A DNA stretch of 47,361 nt from Deltaproteobacteria bacterium. GTDB taxonomy: Bacteria; Desulfobacterota; Deferrimicrobia; Deferrimicrobiales; Deferrimicrobiaceae. The translations under genes and the position numbers were made by a program. Of the stretch, positions 5,310-37,088 are shown piece after piece. Numbering within the stretch: position 1 is the stretch's first letter; each line of letters begins with the position of its first letter. The notes beneath the pieces were generated by a model. It was not told the origin of the DNA, ran no database searches, and worked only from the letters and a program-made list of their open reading frames with translations. The DNA lies in assembly GCA_021824125.1 (NCBI GenBank), contig JAKALO010000004.1, positions 1 to 47,361 of the forward strand, read 5' to 3'.

Positions 5310-8620
<3,311 letters not shown>

Positions 8621-24634: not shown

Positions 24635-26166
24635 GAGCCGATGCGCTCCTTGATCATGGAGTAGGTAAGGCGATGTTTCTCTGCGATGCACATCGCGTAG
24701 GCGAGTCCGTCCGCGGGACGTCTGACGATCTTGAAGGTCCGTAACGCCGGATTCTCGGGGACAACCGTGCTGACCATGCTCACGGTCTTCTCGTTCAAGG
24801 ATGCCAGCTCGTCGATGAATGTCACCCAGACACACAGAAGGTCCAGCGCCATGATCTTGTCCGCGATCTTCCTGCTCAGGGCGACCGCATCGCGCAACGT
24901 CGTGGACATGAAGACCTCGTTCATGACGATGATGCTGTTCGGAGTGGCACGCTCCAGGATCTGGTGGATCCTGACAAGGTCGTCCTGGAGCTTGCCGCGG
25001 AGATCCTTGAGGTTTTCCTCCTTTTCGAAGTGCGTGAAAAGGCGGTCGAAGAGGAAGAGCTGCGCGTGTGTACCGGGAACGGGACAGCCCAGGCTCGCCA
25101 GATAATGGAGCTGGCCGAAGGTGCGGGCGAAGGTCGTCTTGCCGCCCTGGTTAGGACCGGAGACGACAATAATGCGCTCGCCGTCCTTGAGGTGAAAGTC
25201 GTTGCAGACAACATTGCCGCCTTCGGCAATGAGGTTGTTGGCCAGGGCCAGATCGAACCCCTGAACGCTGCGGACCTCCTTGGATGCCCGGATGACGCGC
25301 GGATAACAGAATTTCAAGCCCGCATTACGGACGCGGGCGGTATGCTCCAGGTAGGCGACATAGAATTGAATCTCCCGATCGAATGTGACGATCGTGCGGT
25401 CTTGAAAGTCTTTGTTTTCCGCGCAGTACTGTTCGAGTGCGGAAAAGATATCAGGATGCAACAGGGCCACCAACGCAACGATTCTTTCTTCCACGCTGTT
25501 CATTTGCGGTGAGTCGATAAAGTTGAAAGAGTATTCCTTGGCGGCGCCCTGCCTGAATATTTCGAATGTCGCGGTGACCTCCGAGGCGTAATCGGGTTCG
25601 CCGCCGTAGTGACGGACTTCCACGCGAAGGCCGTTCATGAGCACGGTGTAATGGATCGCGGAGAGGTCGGCTATGAGCTTCTTGGTTCGTTGGAAAAGGG
25701 AGGTGAAGGAATCGGACCCGGCATAGAGGGTCACATATTTCCGGAACGCCAACAGACCACGCGATCTCGGTTCCGCAACGGACAAGTCGTGGGCCAAGCG
25801 GGTCACGACATCGCAGTAGATGTCGGCTGCGTCCAGGAACCAGCGTTCCTTTTGAAGTTTGCAGGACATCTTCCCGGATTGAGCGAGATGTTCGCGCATC
25901 GCGCGCATCCGCTGGGCAAATGCTTTGATGTTGTCGAGAAGGGGGGTAGCATCGAGATCCTGCATGATTTCGTGACGCCAGGTGATGGCTTCGGCATCCT
26001 GCAGGGGCATGTAGAAGAAAGACTTCAGGTCATATTCCGTTTTCCCGGCCGTGATCGCATCGATGATCTGATCGAGATTAAGATCGAAAAAAAAGTCGGG
26101 GGCGGATAGTCCCTCGTTCGGGATGCAGTCGCCTGTGTTCGGAAAGAGGATGCTGCGGAAGGTCAT
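24631..26166 (-). CDS. MutS-like ATPase A (MutS domain V family)
   Basis: First gene after the fluoride riboswitch, 511 residues. It has the MutS clamp/lever-like helical region and a C-terminal ATPase with Walker A SGPNQGGKTTF (336-346), Walker B variant VMNEVF (Asn416 for Asp) and STTLRDAVALSRK. At the switch-His position it has Phe450 (WVTFIDEL), unlike MutS-like B. No mismatch-binding domain is present, so it is not MutS1. The pair probably forms a heterodimer with one altered site. ATG 26166 has AAGGTG 8 nt upstream; the longer frame from 26403 would run through the riboswitch and is rejected. Function unknown. Confidence 0.88.
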   Translation of the reverse strand: MTFRSILFPNTGDCIPNEGLSAPDFFFDLNLDQIIDAITAGKTEYDLKSFFYMPLQDAEAITWRHEIMQDLDATPLLDNIKAFAQRMRAMREHLAQSGKMSCKLQKERWFLDAADIYCDVVTRLAHDLSVAEPRSRGLLAFRKYVTLYAGSDSFTSLFQRTKKLIADLSAIHYTVLMNGLRVEVRHYGGEPDYASEVTATFEIFRQGAAKEYSFNFIDSPQMNSVEERIVALVALLHPDIFSALEQYCAENKDFQDRTIVTFDREIQFYVAYLEHTARVRNAGLKFCYPRVIRASKEVRSVQGFDLALANNLIAEGGNVVCNDFHLKDGERIIVVSGPNQGGKTTFARTFGQLHYLASLGCPVPGTHAQLFLFDRLFTHFEKEENLKDLRGKLQDDLVRIHQILERATPNSIIVMNEVFMSTTLRDAVALSRKIADKIMALDLLCVWVTFIDELASLNEKTVSMVSTVVPENPALRTFKIVRRPADGLAYAMCIAEKHRLTYSMIKERIGS

Positions 26167-26306: not shown

Positions 26307-26344
26307 AAAACAAACTCCTGCCGAAGAGATTCTTCAGAGGAGTT
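26307..26344 (-). terminator. Riboswitch-controlled terminator of the MutS-enolase operon
   Basis: On the minus strand AACTCCT (26344-26338) pairs with AGGAGTT (26319-26313), with an inner GAAGA/TCTTC helix, followed by TGTTTT. The left arm is the same ACTCCT that closes the fluoride aptamer. Ligand-bound aptamer and terminator are therefore mutually exclusive: fluoride should turn the operon on. Confidence 0.88.
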
Positions 26345-26387
26345 ATCAGCCTGCAAGCGGCGGTTAAAGGCGAACTCCATCGCCTTG
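26337..26387 (-). promoter_or_regulatory. Fluoride riboswitch 1 (crcB motif), MutS-enolase operon
   Basis: Minus-strand reading shows GGCGATGGAGTTCGCC, then TTTAACCGCC, a short hairpin, and GGCTGATAACTCCT. This is the crcB/fluoride consensus: a GGCG..CGCC helix with loop AUGGAGU, and a distal ACUCC that forms the long-range helix with GGAGU. It lies about 170 nt before the first MutS-like gene. The highly conserved GAUGG and GCUGAU blocks are exact. Confidence 0.93.
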
Positions 26388-26402
26388 CTGTATTCACCGG
26401 CA

Positions 26403-27781: not shown

Positions 27782-27825
27782 CGGATGCCCCGCACGATGA
27801 ACCTACCGCGTACGAGCCTGCGCGG

Positions 27826-27877: not shown

Positions 27878-27886
27878 AAGCAAGTT

Positions 27887-28008: not shown

Positions 28009-28020
28009 TCGTCCTGCAAT

Positions 28021-28077
28021 AAGGGCGATGGAGTTCGCCTGAAACCGCCTGTCTGCCGGACGGCTGATGACTCCTGC
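28021..28077 (+). promoter_or_regulatory. Fluoride riboswitch 3 (crcB motif), dynamin-like GTPase
   Basis: GGCGATGGAGTTCGCC (28024-28039), TGAAACCGCC, a short stem, and GGCTGATGACTCCT (28062-28075). All conserved blocks of the fluoride aptamer are present, and GGAGT can pair with ACTCC. It resembles riboswitch 1 most closely, suggesting duplication. The 3' end overlaps a terminator stem. Confidence 0.94.
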
Positions 28078-28106
28078 GACTTTCACTGGTCGCGGGAGTT
28101 TTTTTT
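28071..28106 (+). terminator. Riboswitch-controlled terminator before the GTPase
   Basis: CTCCTGCGAC (28071-28080) pairs with GTCGCGGGAG (28089-28098, one wobble), followed by eight T. The left arm contains the CTCCT of the aptamer, so fluoride binding should prevent termination. Confidence 0.92.
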
Positions 28107-28119
28107 CGATGGAGATTCG

Positions 28120-29832
28120 GTGAGCCTGGATGACCACGAAATGGGAACTTCGAACCCGGGGACGGATGTCGCGGATTCCCGGCAGGCGGTCATGCTGCGC
28201 CTCGAACGGATCTGCCGGGAGTTCAACGTGGATTCCCTTCTCCCCCAGATCGGGGCCGGGGAGGAGGTCCTGCGGGAGCACGGGGTGGTGGACGTGGCCG
28301 TCCTCGGCCAGTTCAAGGCTGGCAAGAGCTCCTTCCTGAACGGCCTCATCGGGAGGGACGTGCTGCCCGTCAACGTACTTCCTGCCACCGCCGTGATCAC
28401 GCGGATCGGGCATGGCCCCGCGGATCGGGCTCTCGCGCGGCACATGGATGGACGCGCCCGGGAGATACCCCTGGAGGATCTGCCCGAATTCGTGACGGAG
28501 CAGCGGAACCCGGGGAACGCGAAGCAAGTGTCGATCGTGGACGTCGAGCTTCCGGTCCTCGCGGACTTCCGGGGGATGCGTTTCGTGGACACGCCGGGCC
28601 TGGGGAGCGTTTTCGCCCACAACACGAAGGTCTCAATGGAATGGCTCCCCCGCGTCGGGGGGGCGCTCGTCGCCGTAAGCGTCAACCACCCCCTTTCCGA
28701 ACAGGACCTGAACCTGCTCCTGGAGGTGTTCCGGCACACTCCCGAGACGGCGATCCTGCTCACGAAGGCCGATCTCGTGACCGGGGAACAGCTCGAAGCG
28801 GTCGTGGAGTTCACGAAGCGGCAGGTGATCCGGCATACGGGGAAGGATGTGGCGATCCTTCCGTTCTCAAACCGCCCCGGCTTCGATGCATTGCGGAACG
28901 CCGTCCGGGAACACCTTTTCCGACGGATCGTCCACCGGCGCGAGGAGACGTTCGAGGAGATCGTCGACCACAAGATACGATTTCTCGTCGGCGAATGCCG
29001 GCAATACCTGGCGCTGGCGCACCGTGTCGCCGAAACCGCGGGTAAGGCCCGGGAGGAGCTTCGGGAGGTCCTGGAGCGCGAGGACCGGGACCTGGGCGCC
29101 GTGAAGAGCGAAATCGGTCTGCAGATCCGCGATATCGAATCCCGCGTACGGACGGCCGCCGGGGAACGGTTCCATTCCCACCACCGGGAAATCCTGGACC
29201 GGATGGTTAGCAGGCTGGGGGAGGCAGGCAAGGAGTGGACAGGAAACCTGGCGAAGGTCACCGGGGCGTTCCGTGAATGGCTGCTCGAAGCCCTCTCGGA
29301 AGAACTCGCCGAGGTCTCGTTCCACGGGGAAACCCACCTTGCGGGATTTCTCGTGACGTCCCAGTCGAGCTTCCAGCGAACGGTCCGGGCTTTCCAGGAC
29401 CGGCTTGCCAAGGAGATCGAACGCGCCCTGGGGATCCCGTTCACCGGGGCGCGGTTCCACGCGGAGATCGAGGAGCCGGCGCGTCCCGACGTCCGGGTTG
29501 GGAAGACATTCGACTCCCAGGTCGACCTGCTATGGTTCCTCGTACCGATGAGCGTCTTCCGCTCACTCGTCTTGCGCCACTTCCGGAAACAGGTCGTCTG
29601 GGAAGTCGAAAAGAACCTTTCCCGCCTGGCCTCCCAATGGGCCGATGCCGTGAACCGGTCGATCGGCGGCCTGGCGCGCCAGTCCCTGGAGTTCATGCGG
29701 GGCGAGGCCGCCACGATCCGAAGCCTCGTCGAGAACGCCGAAGACCGGCGGGACGACATCCGGAAGGCTATCGCGGAGCTTGACCACCTGGAATCATCAC
29801 TGTCGGGGTCTCCGCGGGAGGGGGCGTGTTGA
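28120..29832 (+). CDS. Dynamin-like large GTPase, fluoride-riboswitch controlled
   Basis: A 570-residue bacterial dynamin-like protein. The GTPase domain has G1 GQFKAGKSS (63-71), a G2 Thr in PATAVITRI (88-96), G3 DTPG (157-160) and G4 TKAD (215-218). A long helical stalk follows (about 265-460), then a hydrophobic stretch LLWFLVPMSVF (about 470-480) that may act as the membrane-inserting paddle, and a helical C-terminus. Such proteins bind and remodel membranes. The start is GTG 28120 with GGAG 5 nt upstream, 14 nt after the riboswitch terminator. It is the only gene of this transcript. A role in membrane repair under fluoride stress is my inference; I know of no described case. Confidence 0.88.
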   Translation: MSLDDHEMGTSNPGTDVADSRQAVMLRLERICREFNVDSLLPQIGAGEEVLREHGVVDVAVLGQFKAGKSSFLNGLIGRDVLPVNVLPATAVITRIGHGPADRALARHMDGRAREIPLEDLPEFVTEQRNPGNAKQVSIVDVELPVLADFRGMRFVDTPGLGSVFAHNTKVSMEWLPRVGGALVAVSVNHPLSEQDLNLLLEVFRHTPETAILLTKADLVTGEQLEAVVEFTKRQVIRHTGKDVAILPFSNRPGFDALRNAVREHLFRRIVHRREETFEEIVDHKIRFLVGECRQYLALAHRVAETAGKAREELREVLEREDRDLGAVKSEIGLQIRDIESRVRTAAGERFHSHHREILDRMVSRLGEAGKEWTGNLAKVTGAFREWLLEALSEELAEVSFHGETHLAGFLVTSQSSFQRTVRAFQDRLAKEIERALGIPFTGARFHAEIEEPARPDVRVGKTFDSQVDLLWFLVPMSVFRSLVLRHFRKQVVWEVEKNLSRLASQWADAVNRSIGGLARQSLEFMRGEAATIRSLVENAEDRRDDIRKAIAELDHLESSLSGSPREGAC

Positions 29833-34436: not shown

Positions 34437-37088
34437 ATGAACGGTACTCGGACGACGCCGGTTTCCGGCTCCGACGCCTCCCTCCTCCGCGTCCCCCCGC
34501 ACAACCTCGCGGCCGAGCAGGGGGTGCTCGCCTCCATCCTTCTGAACAACGACCTGATGAACACCGTGGTGGAGATCCTCCGGCCGGAGGATTTCTACCA
34601 GGGCGCCCACCGCACCCTCTTCTCCGTGATGCAGGACCTCTACGACCGGGGCCGCGCGATCGACCAGCTGACCCTCTCCGCGGCGCTCAAGGACCGCGGC
34701 GTGGAGGGGGAGGTCGGGGGGCTGGCCTACCTCTCCGACCTGATCCAGAACGTCCCCACCACCGCCAACGTGGGGGACTACGCCCGCCTGGTCAAGAACG
34801 CCTCGATATTGCGCAAGACGATCGCCGTCGCCCAGCAGATCACCACCTCGGCGTTTCAGGGGGTTTCCGAGGTGGACGACTTTCTGGACCAGACCGAGCA
34901 GGCGATCTTCGCGATCGCCGAGGAGAAGATAAAGCCCTCCTACTACACGATGTCCGAGATGGCCAGGGAGTCGATGCGGGAGATCGAGAAACTCTTCGAG
35001 AAGAAGGAGATGATCACCGGCGTTCCCTCGGGCTTCCGCGACCTGGACCAGCTCACCTCGGGTTTCCAGAAGTCGGACATGATCATCATCGCGGCGCGGC
35101 CGGGGATGGGCAAGACCGCCTTCTGCCTCAACGTCGCCCAGAACGCATCGATCCGGCACAAGCTGCCCGTCGCGATCTTCTCCCTGGAGATGAGCCGGCA
35201 GCAGCTTGCGCTGCGGATGATCTGCTCGGACGCCCGGGTCAACTCCCAGCGGATGCGGAGGGGGTACCTCGCGCAGGACGAGATGAACCGGATCGTCGCC
35301 TCCGTGGGGAGGCTGTCGGAGGCCCCGATCTTCATCGACGACTCGGGGTCTCTGACGGCGCTCGAGCTGCGGGCGAAGGCGCGGCGGCTGAAGAAGGACA
35401 AGCAGATCGGGCTGCTGATGGTCGACTACCTCCAGCTCATGCGGGGGAACTCCTACCGCGCCTCCTCGGACAACCGCGTGCAGGAGGTCTCGGAGATCTC
35501 CCGCTCGCTCAAGGCGCTGGCCAAGGAGCTCGATATCCCGGTGCTGGCCATCTCCCAGCTGAGCCGGAGCGTCGAGAGTCGGAACGACAAGCGGCCCCAG
35601 ATGGCCGACCTTCGCGAATGCGTGACCGGAGACACGCTTGTCCTTCTGGCCGACGGCAGCCGTGTGCCCATACGGGACCTGGTGGGAAAGCAGATTGAAG
35701 TCTGGGCCATGTCGGCGAAAGGGCGCATCGTGGCGGCAAAGAGCGATCTCGTCTGGTCGGTGGGAGAGAGGCCGGTGACGCGCGTCACGCTGGCAAGCGG
35801 CCGCACGATCCGGGCAACGGCCGAACACCGGCTTTATGGTTCTGATGGCTGGATACGTGTCGCGGACCTGAAGCCCGGCGACCGCCTTGCGATTGCCCGC
35901 GCCGTACCCGAACCATCCGGGACGATCCGTTGGCCGGAAGAAAGAATCATGCTGCTTGGACAACTTGTCGGCGACGGCAGTTATCTCGTAAACCAGCCGA
36001 TGCGGTACACGACCGCTTCCGAGGAAAACAGCAGTGCCGTAGAGCAGGCGGCCCGAAAAGAGTTCGGAGCGAAGGTGAGCCGCTACCCGGGGCGGGGAAA
36101 ATGGCACCAGCTTCTCATCAGCGGGAACGGGAACCGCTGGCATCCGGCTGGGGTAAACCGTTGGTTGCGCGAGCTGGGAATCTTCGGACAACGGTCCCAC
36201 GAAAAGCGGCTGCCCATGGATGTGTTTCGTTTGAGCAACGATCAGATTGCTCTATTGTTGTGCCACCTCTGGGCGACGGATGGAAGCATCTGTTGCCGCA
36301 AGGCCGGTACTAGGGGTTCGGCAAGAGTATATTTCAGTACGTCAAGCGAGGGACTTGCGAGAGATGTGGCTGCGCTGTTGATCCGTCTTGGCATCGTTGC
36401 CCGGATTGGATCCGTTTGCAAGGCGAATTACCGGCCGGTATTCTCTGTGGCAATCTATGGTGTCGATCAACAGAAACGATTCCTTGAGTCGGTGGGAGCG
36501 TTCGGGCCGCGAGTCGCACCGGCGGACAAACTATGGAACGAGTTGGCGTTCGTGGAGTCAAATACCAACGTCGATACTTTGCCGAAAGAGGTTTTTCTCC
36601 AGGTGAAGGCTGCCATGGCGGGAAGAGGGATTTCGAATCGCGATATGGCGACCCTCCGCGGCACCGCATACGGTGGGGGCAACCACTTTGGTTTTGCCCC
36701 GTCCCGGTCCCTGCTCATGGAGTATGCGAATCTCCTTGACGATGAAACTCTCAGGGGTTGGGCGGCAAGCGACCTGTTCTGGGATCGCGTCGTGGACCTG
36801 AAGCCCGATGGAGTCGATGAGGTTTTCGATCTCACGGTTCCGGGTCCTTTTTCCTGGCTTGCGGACGGGATCGTCAGTCACAATTCTGGGGCCTTGGAGC
36901 AGGACGCGGACCTCATCCTGTTCATCTACCGCGAGGAGATGTACGCCAAGGGGGAGACCCCGGAAGACAAGAAGGGGAAGGCGGAGGTGATCGTCGGCAA
37001 GCACCGGAACGGTCCCATGGGGGAGGTCGACCTCGCCTTCCTGTCCATGTACACCCGTTTCGAGGACCTGGCGAAGGACTACGAATAA
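34437..37088 (+). CDS. dnaB: Replicative DNA helicase DnaB with intein
   Basis: The precursor is 883 residues: a 461-residue DnaB helicase interrupted by a 422-residue intein. The N-domain starts RVPPHNLAAEQGVLASIL. The RecA-like domain has Walker A ARPGMGKT, MVDYLQLM and QLSRSVESR. The insertion lies between DLRE and SGALEQDADLILF, next to a conserved loop of the active site, where splicing restores DLRESGALEQ. ATG 34437 is 9 nt after GGAGG; GTG 34431 is too close to it. DnaB unwinds DNA at the fork as a hexamer, so the cell depends on correct splicing. Last gene of the prs run. Confidence 0.97.
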   Translation: MNGTRTTPVSGSDASLLRVPPHNLAAEQGVLASILLNNDLMNTVVEILRPEDFYQGAHRTLFSVMQDLYDRGRAIDQLTLSAALKDRGVEGEVGGLAYLSDLIQNVPTTANVGDYARLVKNASILRKTIAVAQQITTSAFQGVSEVDDFLDQTEQAIFAIAEEKIKPSYYTMSEMARESMREIEKLFEKKEMITGVPSGFRDLDQLTSGFQKSDMIIIAARPGMGKTAFCLNVAQNASIRHKLPVAIFSLEMSRQQLALRMICSDARVNSQRMRRGYLAQDEMNRIVASVGRLSEAPIFIDDSGSLTALELRAKARRLKKDKQIGLLMVDYLQLMRGNSYRASSDNRVQEVSEISRSLKALAKELDIPVLAISQLSRSVESRNDKRPQMADLRECVTGDTLVLLADGSRVPIRDLVGKQIEVWAMSAKGRIVAAKSDLVWSVGERPVTRVTLASGRTIRATAEHRLYGSDGWIRVADLKPGDRLAIARAVPEPSGTIRWPEERIMLLGQLVGDGSYLVNQPMRYTTASEENSSAVEQAARKEFGAKVSRYPGRGKWHQLLISGNGNRWHPAGVNRWLRELGIFGQRSHEKRLPMDVFRLSNDQIALLLCHLWATDGSICCRKAGTRGSARVYFSTSSEGLARDVAALLIRLGIVARIGSVCKANYRPVFSVAIYGVDQQKRFLESVGAFGPRVAPADKLWNELAFVESNTNVDTLPKEVFLQVKAAMAGRGISNRDMATLRGTAYGGGNHFGFAPSRSLLMEYANLLDDETLRGWAASDLFWDRVVDLKPDGVDEVFDLTVPGPFSWLADGIVSHNSGALEQDADLILFIYREEMYAKGETPEDKKGKAEVIVGKHRNGPMGEVDLAFLSMYTRFEDLAKDYE
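35619..36884 (+). other. DnaB intein with LAGLIDADG-type homing endonuclease
   Basis: 422 codons in frame. Block A begins at the catalytic Cys (CVTGDTLVLLADG). Block B has TIRATAEHRL with the conserved Thr and His. Endonuclease motifs appear as LLGQLVGDGSYL and LLLCHLWATDGS, so both DOD motifs with their acidic residues are present. The end is EVFDLTVPGPFSWLADGIVSHN, with penultimate His and terminal Asn, and Ser is the first downstream host residue. It looks fully active in splicing and homing. The start resembles the Rhodothermus DnaB intein. Codon use, with more A/T-ending codons than dnaB itself, suggests transfer. Confidence 0.95.

Follow-up and report, generated by a model that had tools for sequence, protein, structure and literature searches.

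The locus and its genes

A search of the window, meaning the whole 47,361-nucleotide stretch of DNA analysed here, with the Rfam model RF01734 identified three fluoride riboswitch aptamers: RS1 at 26393–26330 on the minus strand (51.1 bits, gathering score 34, E 2.3e-11), RS2 at 27883–27819 on the minus strand and RS3 at 28015–28083 on the plus strand. Beyond these three, no fluoride aptamer was found in the assembly to which the window belongs (2,617,964 bases in 246 contigs). A perfect -10 box, TATAAT (26408–26403, minus), recognised by reading 9 nt before the aptamer, is the probable promoter element of RS1 itself and is preceded by a possible -35 element, TTGTAT (26430–26425, minus; 3 of 6 matches, 16-nt spacer). 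The weakness of this -35 element explains why a consensus promoter scan of the window listed no promoter at RS1. Of the 213 fluoride leaders surveyed below, 77 among the matches listed have a -10 box with five or six matches within the 40 nt preceding the aptamer, compared to 44.0 in shuffled sequences.

The gene order downstream of RS1 points to an operon of four minus-strand genes. The first, MutS-A (26166–24631), encodes a protein with MutS domain V only (PF00488), and the second, MutS-B (24634–23021), encodes another domain V protein whose GTG start, chosen by reading, overlaps the MutS-A stop codon (GTGA). These are followed by a small TPR-like gene (23024–22665) with weak TPR matches below curated cut-offs, and by an enolase gene (22516–21236; PF00113, PF03952, TIGR01060), which is the second copy in the genome and the last gene of the likely operon. 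A terminator-like hairpin from a consensus terminator scan (21123–21101, minus) possibly marks the operon end; it is weak evidence because the scan yields nine sites against 9.4 in shuffles.

PF00488 is the only Pfam domain in either MutS-domain protein, and scores against the two MutS equivalog models lie far below their cut-offs of 480 and 641.7 (82.6 and 73.6 for MutS-A, 70.1 and 67.9 for MutS-B), so a role in DNA repair should not be assumed. Both proteins (26166–23021, minus) have long N-terminal parts of unassigned kind, and both also match the model of the lysine aminomutase reactivase ATPase KamC below its cut-off. MutS-A and MutS-B may act as ATPases in a fluoride-related role instead of in repair.

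Two enolase matches exist in the genome, both of them within the window; the one outside the RS1 operon lies at 5797–7080 on the plus strand and is 67% identical. A second copy placed in the RS1 operon looks like a fluoride-induced spare, and enolase is described as fluoride-sensitive and frequent in fluoride riboswitch operons in the available part of PMC11139923. The first enolase gene is flanked, by sequence reading, by a universal stress protein-like ORF (5310–5768) and followed by a phosphoglycerate mutase-like ORF (7031–8620, plus), a gene set recalling uspA, eno and gpmA of the Enterobacter cloacae fluoride operon (PMC5533749, seen in part). The Rfam search of the window found no fluoride aptamer at this first enolase locus (5310–8620).

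RS2 and RS3 each precede a different gene. A CPA2-kind antiporter gene (27716–26487, minus) follows RS2; its relatives (E 1e-40) occur in 16 of 79 genomes, and 15 of these 16 have a fluoride aptamer at most 600 nt upstream, the exception lying at a contig end (G017). A dynamin-like GTPase gene (28120–29832, plus; Dynamin_N) follows RS3, with relatives (E 1e-20) in 24 of 79 genomes. For 21 of the 24, a same-strand fluoride aptamer stands no more than 2 kb upstream, and in the other three (G006, G013, G058) gene and aptamer are on separate contigs. We found no tie between dynamins and fluoride riboswitches in the literature searched.

One strand shared by the RS1 pseudoknot and terminator

The RS1 pseudoknot consists of six pairs between GGAGTT in the P1 loop (26378–26373, minus) and the 3' strand AACTCC (26344–26339), with all six positions paired. 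The strand shared with the terminator is one base longer, AACTCCT (26344–26338, minus), and its seventh base, U 26338, sits at the linchpin position opposite A 26346, an identity assigned by position with the numbering of PMC11077080 (seen in part). This strand also makes up the left arm of a terminator hairpin (26344–26313, minus) of 14 pairs with one bulged C and about −16.5 kcal/mol, in which it pairs with the right arm AGGAGTT (26319–26313, minus). The pseudoknot 3' strand is therefore also the left foot of a predicted intrinsic terminator, an arrangement termed direct overlap below. The hairpin is directly followed by TGTTTTATG, and the U-rich tail, TTTGTTTTATG (26314–26304, minus), begins with two T that are part of the right arm. 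An earlier sequence-only reading had placed both arms exactly to the base and had held that seven bases are common to the closure of the aptamer and the left arm of the terminator. Both pairings are indeed present and the strand is the aptamer's own, with the refinement that the closure is specifically the pseudoknot, made by six of the seven bases, together with the linchpin U.

The minimum-energy fold of the whole leader (26393–26270) includes the terminator at −40.1 kcal/mol. Barring the pseudoknot strands from nested pairs gives −34.4 kcal/mol, a value that does not yet include what pseudoknot and ligand contribute. The closeness of these two states, judged from static energies, suggests that the ligand could decide between them.

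The RS1 terminator is middling in strength. Among the 74 strict overlapping terminators of the survey described below, its U-tract, interrupted by a G, ranks 53rd (score 4.84 against a median of 5.64), its hairpin energy, −16.6 kcal/mol in this comparison, stands against a median of −18.15 kcal/mol, and 39 of the 74 stems are free of bulges whereas that of RS1 has one. The bulge is presumably why the RS1 hairpin is not among the sites of the simple consensus terminator scan of the window. The description of RS1 as a clean transcription-attenuation ON switch consequently fits its mutually exclusive pairings and its Rfam match, but not its bulge, its interrupted U-tract or its rank.

RS1 is very probably a real riboswitch for fluoride, as predicted from its sequence and the published mechanism. 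Because of the Rfam match, the two exclusive pairings and that mechanism, we posit, at a probability of roughly 80%, that it is an ON switch which responds to fluoride by transcription attenuation and controls read-through into the genes from MutS-A to the second enolase. Transcription of the leader would start at the promoter just upstream, and the aptamer would fold first and form its pseudoknot. Without fluoride, the emerging hairpin would pull AACTCCT out of the pseudoknot and the polymerase would halt in the U-rich tail. When both fluoride and magnesium are present, pseudoknot and linchpin would hold, the foot of the hairpin would be blocked, and read-through would extend into MutS-A, MutS-B, the small TPR-like gene and the second enolase.

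Overlapping terminators across fluoride leaders

When the sequence downstream of the RS1 strand was dinucleotide-shuffled, any overlapping terminator arose in 68 of 2000 shuffles and one as stable as that of RS1 in 30. Within the window, 4 of 68 RACTCC sites have such a hairpin, namely RS1, RS3 and the sites at 34972 and 36559 (both minus), the rate at non-riboswitch sites being 2 of 65. Taken alone, RS1 is thus suggestive, and it is the excess across the whole riboswitch class that makes the overlap firm.

This class was surveyed by parsing aptamers for their pseudoknots. A total of 229 distinct aptamers were parsed among the matches listed, of which 16 were dropped for an odd top pair, a linchpin position without U or insufficient sequence, leaving 213 (150 from genomes mostly of the same phylum and 63 from named contigs that span many phyla). 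Of 53 places in the pseudoknot parse, seven gave none. A further 57 pattern matches lacked a parse, and among 25 inspected most look like coding matches, while L078, L085 and L092 resemble true aptamers lost to strict pairing rules and L111 enters masked bases. Overlapping terminators were found in 84 of the 213 aptamers among the matches listed against a shuffle mean of 29.6 (85 of 213 with a slightly different cut), and in 74 against 11.4 under a stricter rule, with shared descent limiting the independence of the 213.

These background rates bear on a reading that we consider highly improbable, in which the RS1 hairpin serves to end transcription of the antiporter gene upstream, its overlap with the aptamer being accidental. 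The hairpin does follow that gene on its strand at a distance of about 140 nt, and would stop RS2 transcripts too. Its left arm, however, is the conserved pseudoknot strand, few shuffles yield so stable a hairpin, the excess of overlaps is class-wide, and the perfect -10 box stands between the antiporter gene and the RS1 aptamer.

The attenuation reading gains further from the 74 strict cases among the matches listed, in which position 46, for instance, is G-C in 52 and A-U in 22 pseudoknots, and C-G in 52, U-A in 20 and U-G in 2 terminators. The shared strand varies jointly with both of its partners, which is supportive but not independent evidence, since pairing entered the selection and the sequences are related.

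The top, or position-1, pair of the RS1 pseudoknot is U-A (26373 with 26344) rather than the U-G wobble reported as critical for switching in the assays of PMC11077080, in the part available. The wobble is an assay result and not a defining trait of the RF01734 family, but its replacement in RS1 means that function is not simply readable from the sequence, and the claim that the mechanism could be read from sequence alone fails on this point. It also raises the possibility, improbable in our judgement, of a poor or dead switch in which a Watson–Crick position-1 pair resists displacement and gives mostly read-through with or without fluoride. Strengthening this pair from U-G to C-G had such an effect in the Bacillus cereus switch, with 75% read-through without and 94% with fluoride (PMC11077080, as far as available). 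Against this, U-A is not among the variants in the available part of that paper, and its nearest-neighbour energy is not the stronger one (−6.3 for the U-A pseudoknot, −6.7 for U-G). In addition, the 74 strict switches among the matches listed comprise 33 with U-G, 16 with U-A and 25 with C-G, so that nature keeps terminators behind each of the three pairs. All three also occur in this one locus (U-A in RS1, C-G in RS2, U-G in RS3).

We also considered the position-1 pair as a divider of transcriptional from other platforms. Among the matches listed, overlapping terminators accompany 53 of 106 U-type and 32 of 107 C-G pairs (Fisher p 0.003), strict ones 49 of 106 and 25 of 107, and within the U-type A42 and G42 do not differ (17 of 32 and 36 of 74, p 0.83). 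No rule is claimed, because these counts ignore kinship and many clean C-G terminators exist.

A probable relay design in neighbouring and related switches

RS3 is a textbook case of direct overlap, its terminator (28069–28100, plus) having 13 pairs, TTTTTT and −22.4 kcal/mol. A direct overlapping terminator is absent from the RS2 leader (27883–27765, minus), which precedes the antiporter gene. Here, a segment X (27810–27802) can pair either with the pseudoknot strand (−19.3) or with Y, the left arm of a terminator (−11.8; both values for hand-chosen segments), and the separate terminator starts at 27782 (−9.0). RS2 is a probable relay-type platform on this pairing pattern, in which fluoride would free X to block the separate downstream terminator. 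The automatic relay test gave RS2 no score because the terminator it picked left no room for X.

Similar arrangements recur across the class. A separate downstream terminator was found in 93 of the 213 leaders among the matches listed, and 58 of the 213 have both X pairings at the energies set, 14 of these being flagged as direct as well; for 53 of the 58 relay candidates, again among the matches listed, at most 5 of 100 shuffles were as good. The correspondence between X and Y was tested in 44 distinct leaders without a direct terminator, chosen for a strand–X pairing of −10 or below and a terminator of −9 or below, with X–Y pairing ignored. Among the matches listed, X paired with its own Y at a mean of −14.4 in these leaders compared to −11.5 for permuted partners (none of 5000 permutations as good) and −8.0 for a mock Y, although individual leaders give a modest signal, with the own Y at a median rank of 12 of 43. 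Relays thus appear, from these predicted pairings, to occur in many fluoride leaders without a direct terminator. We did not find a relay design for fluoride in the literature searched, which included the available part of PMC11477304, and the words antiterminator and anti-terminator are absent from the main text of PMC13273304.

RS1 carries a second copy of its strand, AACTCCC (26276–26270, minus), which in read-through RNA is capable of pairing with the right arm of the terminator (−9.8 kcal/mol) and is transcribed too late to act on the terminator. This copy may hide a ribosome-binding site or be the relic of a relay. The idea that RS1 itself is a relay was dropped, because AACTCCC is made only after the U-tract and the fold there contains no second terminator.

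Among the 395 genomes of the phylum that were searched, 15 carry relatives of MutS-A, and at 9 of these 15 loci (one per genome) a fluoride aptamer lies in flanks of about 1.5 kb. This association, like the spare copy of a fluoride-sensitive enzyme closing the RS1 operon, counts in favour of the attenuation reading. Inspected by eye, the nine leaders include three with direct terminators (G000, G206, G346), three that are relay-like (G045, G133, G069) and three that are ambiguous (G003, G270, G399). Genome G003 has a further fluoride gene cluster, with four aptamers, all on one strand, in a 9.7 kb stretch (contig C1, 1509–11165; L033).

The terminator right arm as a candidate ribosome-binding site

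The start codon nearest to the RS1 terminator is ATG 26306, which lies 8 nt after the GGAG of the right arm and opens a candidate leader ORF of 47 codons (26306–26163, minus) whose stop overlaps the MutS-A start (ATGA). The distance of about 140 nt to the first start codon given by the sequence-only reading fits the MutS-A ATG at 26166 and overlooks this nearer one. With AGGAG in the right arm 8 nt before ATG 26306, translation control is possible and RS1 may be under dual control; within the attenuation reading, the right arm would additionally act as a ribosome-binding site for this ATG, a less certain step than the others.

A stronger version, in which RS1 is mainly translational (mixed forms included), is possible but in our view unlikely. 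Here the shared strand would hide the AGGAG Shine–Dalgarno sequence of ATG 26306 in the absence of fluoride, and the ATGA overlap would couple MutS-A translation to that of the 47-codon ORF. The GGAG with its 8-nt spacer and ATG is consistent with this reading, as is the frequency of a GGAG-like copy 4–12 nt before an ATG: among the matches listed, 79 of 213 leaders have one, including 33 of the 74 strict cases, compared to 49 of 1065 shuffled sequences. Such a copy is combined with a U-rich spacer and an ATG in 24 distinct leaders, some of them lacking a direct terminator; the ORF so opened exceeds 70 codons in 18 of them within the sequence examined and is short in the other six, RS1 and RS3 included. 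The closest MutS-A relative (G003, 70%) has GGGGAGGAG followed 8 nt on by a GTG in frame with MutS-A, and no ATG at the RS1-type start position. The RS1 leader ORF, however, is only 47 codons long and lacks homology evidence, nothing similar to its peptide being seen by eye in the leaders of G003, G133 and G069, and it could be a chance occurrence. MutS-A moreover has a plausible start of its own by sequence reading (AAGGTG, 7 nt, ATG), the tail is U-rich as terminators require, and the AACTCCC copy could mask AGGAG in read-through RNA. The terminator right arm looks like the ribosome-binding site of the gene in many such leaders, and is a candidate for this role in RS1.

The locus as a whole outweighs RS1, combining within 1.8 kb three fluoride switches of at least two platform designs with genes for two MutS-domain ATPases and a spare enolase, an antiporter and a dynamin-like GTPase. 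We propose, at about even odds, that two or more designs for stopping transcription exist among fluoride riboswitches and that this locus has both, RS1 and RS3 using direct overlap and RS2 the relay, with an RS1 right arm that also bears a ribosome-binding site. If true, the Watson–Crick position-1 pair of RS1 amounts to nature's own trial of whether a wobble is needed there.

Comparison with known systems

RS1 is a new natural example of an already described design, since overlapping terminators, ON logic and downstream mutS genes are all present in PMC2864571, PMC11077080 and PMC13273304, to the extent that these sources were available. In the accessible part of PMC2864571 (Weinberg et al. 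2010), crcB-motif RNAs precede genes including mutS, and predicted terminators overlap the motif in many cases, such that the ligand should raise expression. The overlap of pseudoknot and terminator and the exchange of the strand between them are described in the available part of PMC11077080, and that of PMC13273304 reports an assay of 1901 fluoride riboswitch sequences with covariation for the overlap.

The closest mechanistic parallel is the Bacillus cereus crcB switch, which in the available account (PMC11077080) shares with RS1 a pseudoknot of six pairs (its 3' strand also forming the terminator foot), a linchpin A and U, and the ON logic predicted for RS1. RS1 differs from it in the top pair (U-A instead of U-G), the bulged stem, the interrupted U-tract, the genes controlled, and a right arm that doubles as a possible ribosome-binding site for ATG 26306. 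RS1 likewise resembles the crcB motif before mutS in having a MutS-domain gene, an overlapping terminator and a predicted ON response, but the mutS genes are labelled as DNA repair genes in PMC2864571, as far as available, whereas MutS-A and MutS-B have domain V only and fall short of the MutS models. At the operon level, the nearest relative is the Enterobacter cloacae FRM fluoride operon, comprising ppaC, uspA, eno, gpmA, crcB and orf5249 (PMC5533749, available in part), which similarly has a fluoride riboswitch ahead and an enolase inside; in the RS1 operon, the enolase comes after two MutS-domain genes and a TPR-like gene, and the other five FRM gene names are absent.
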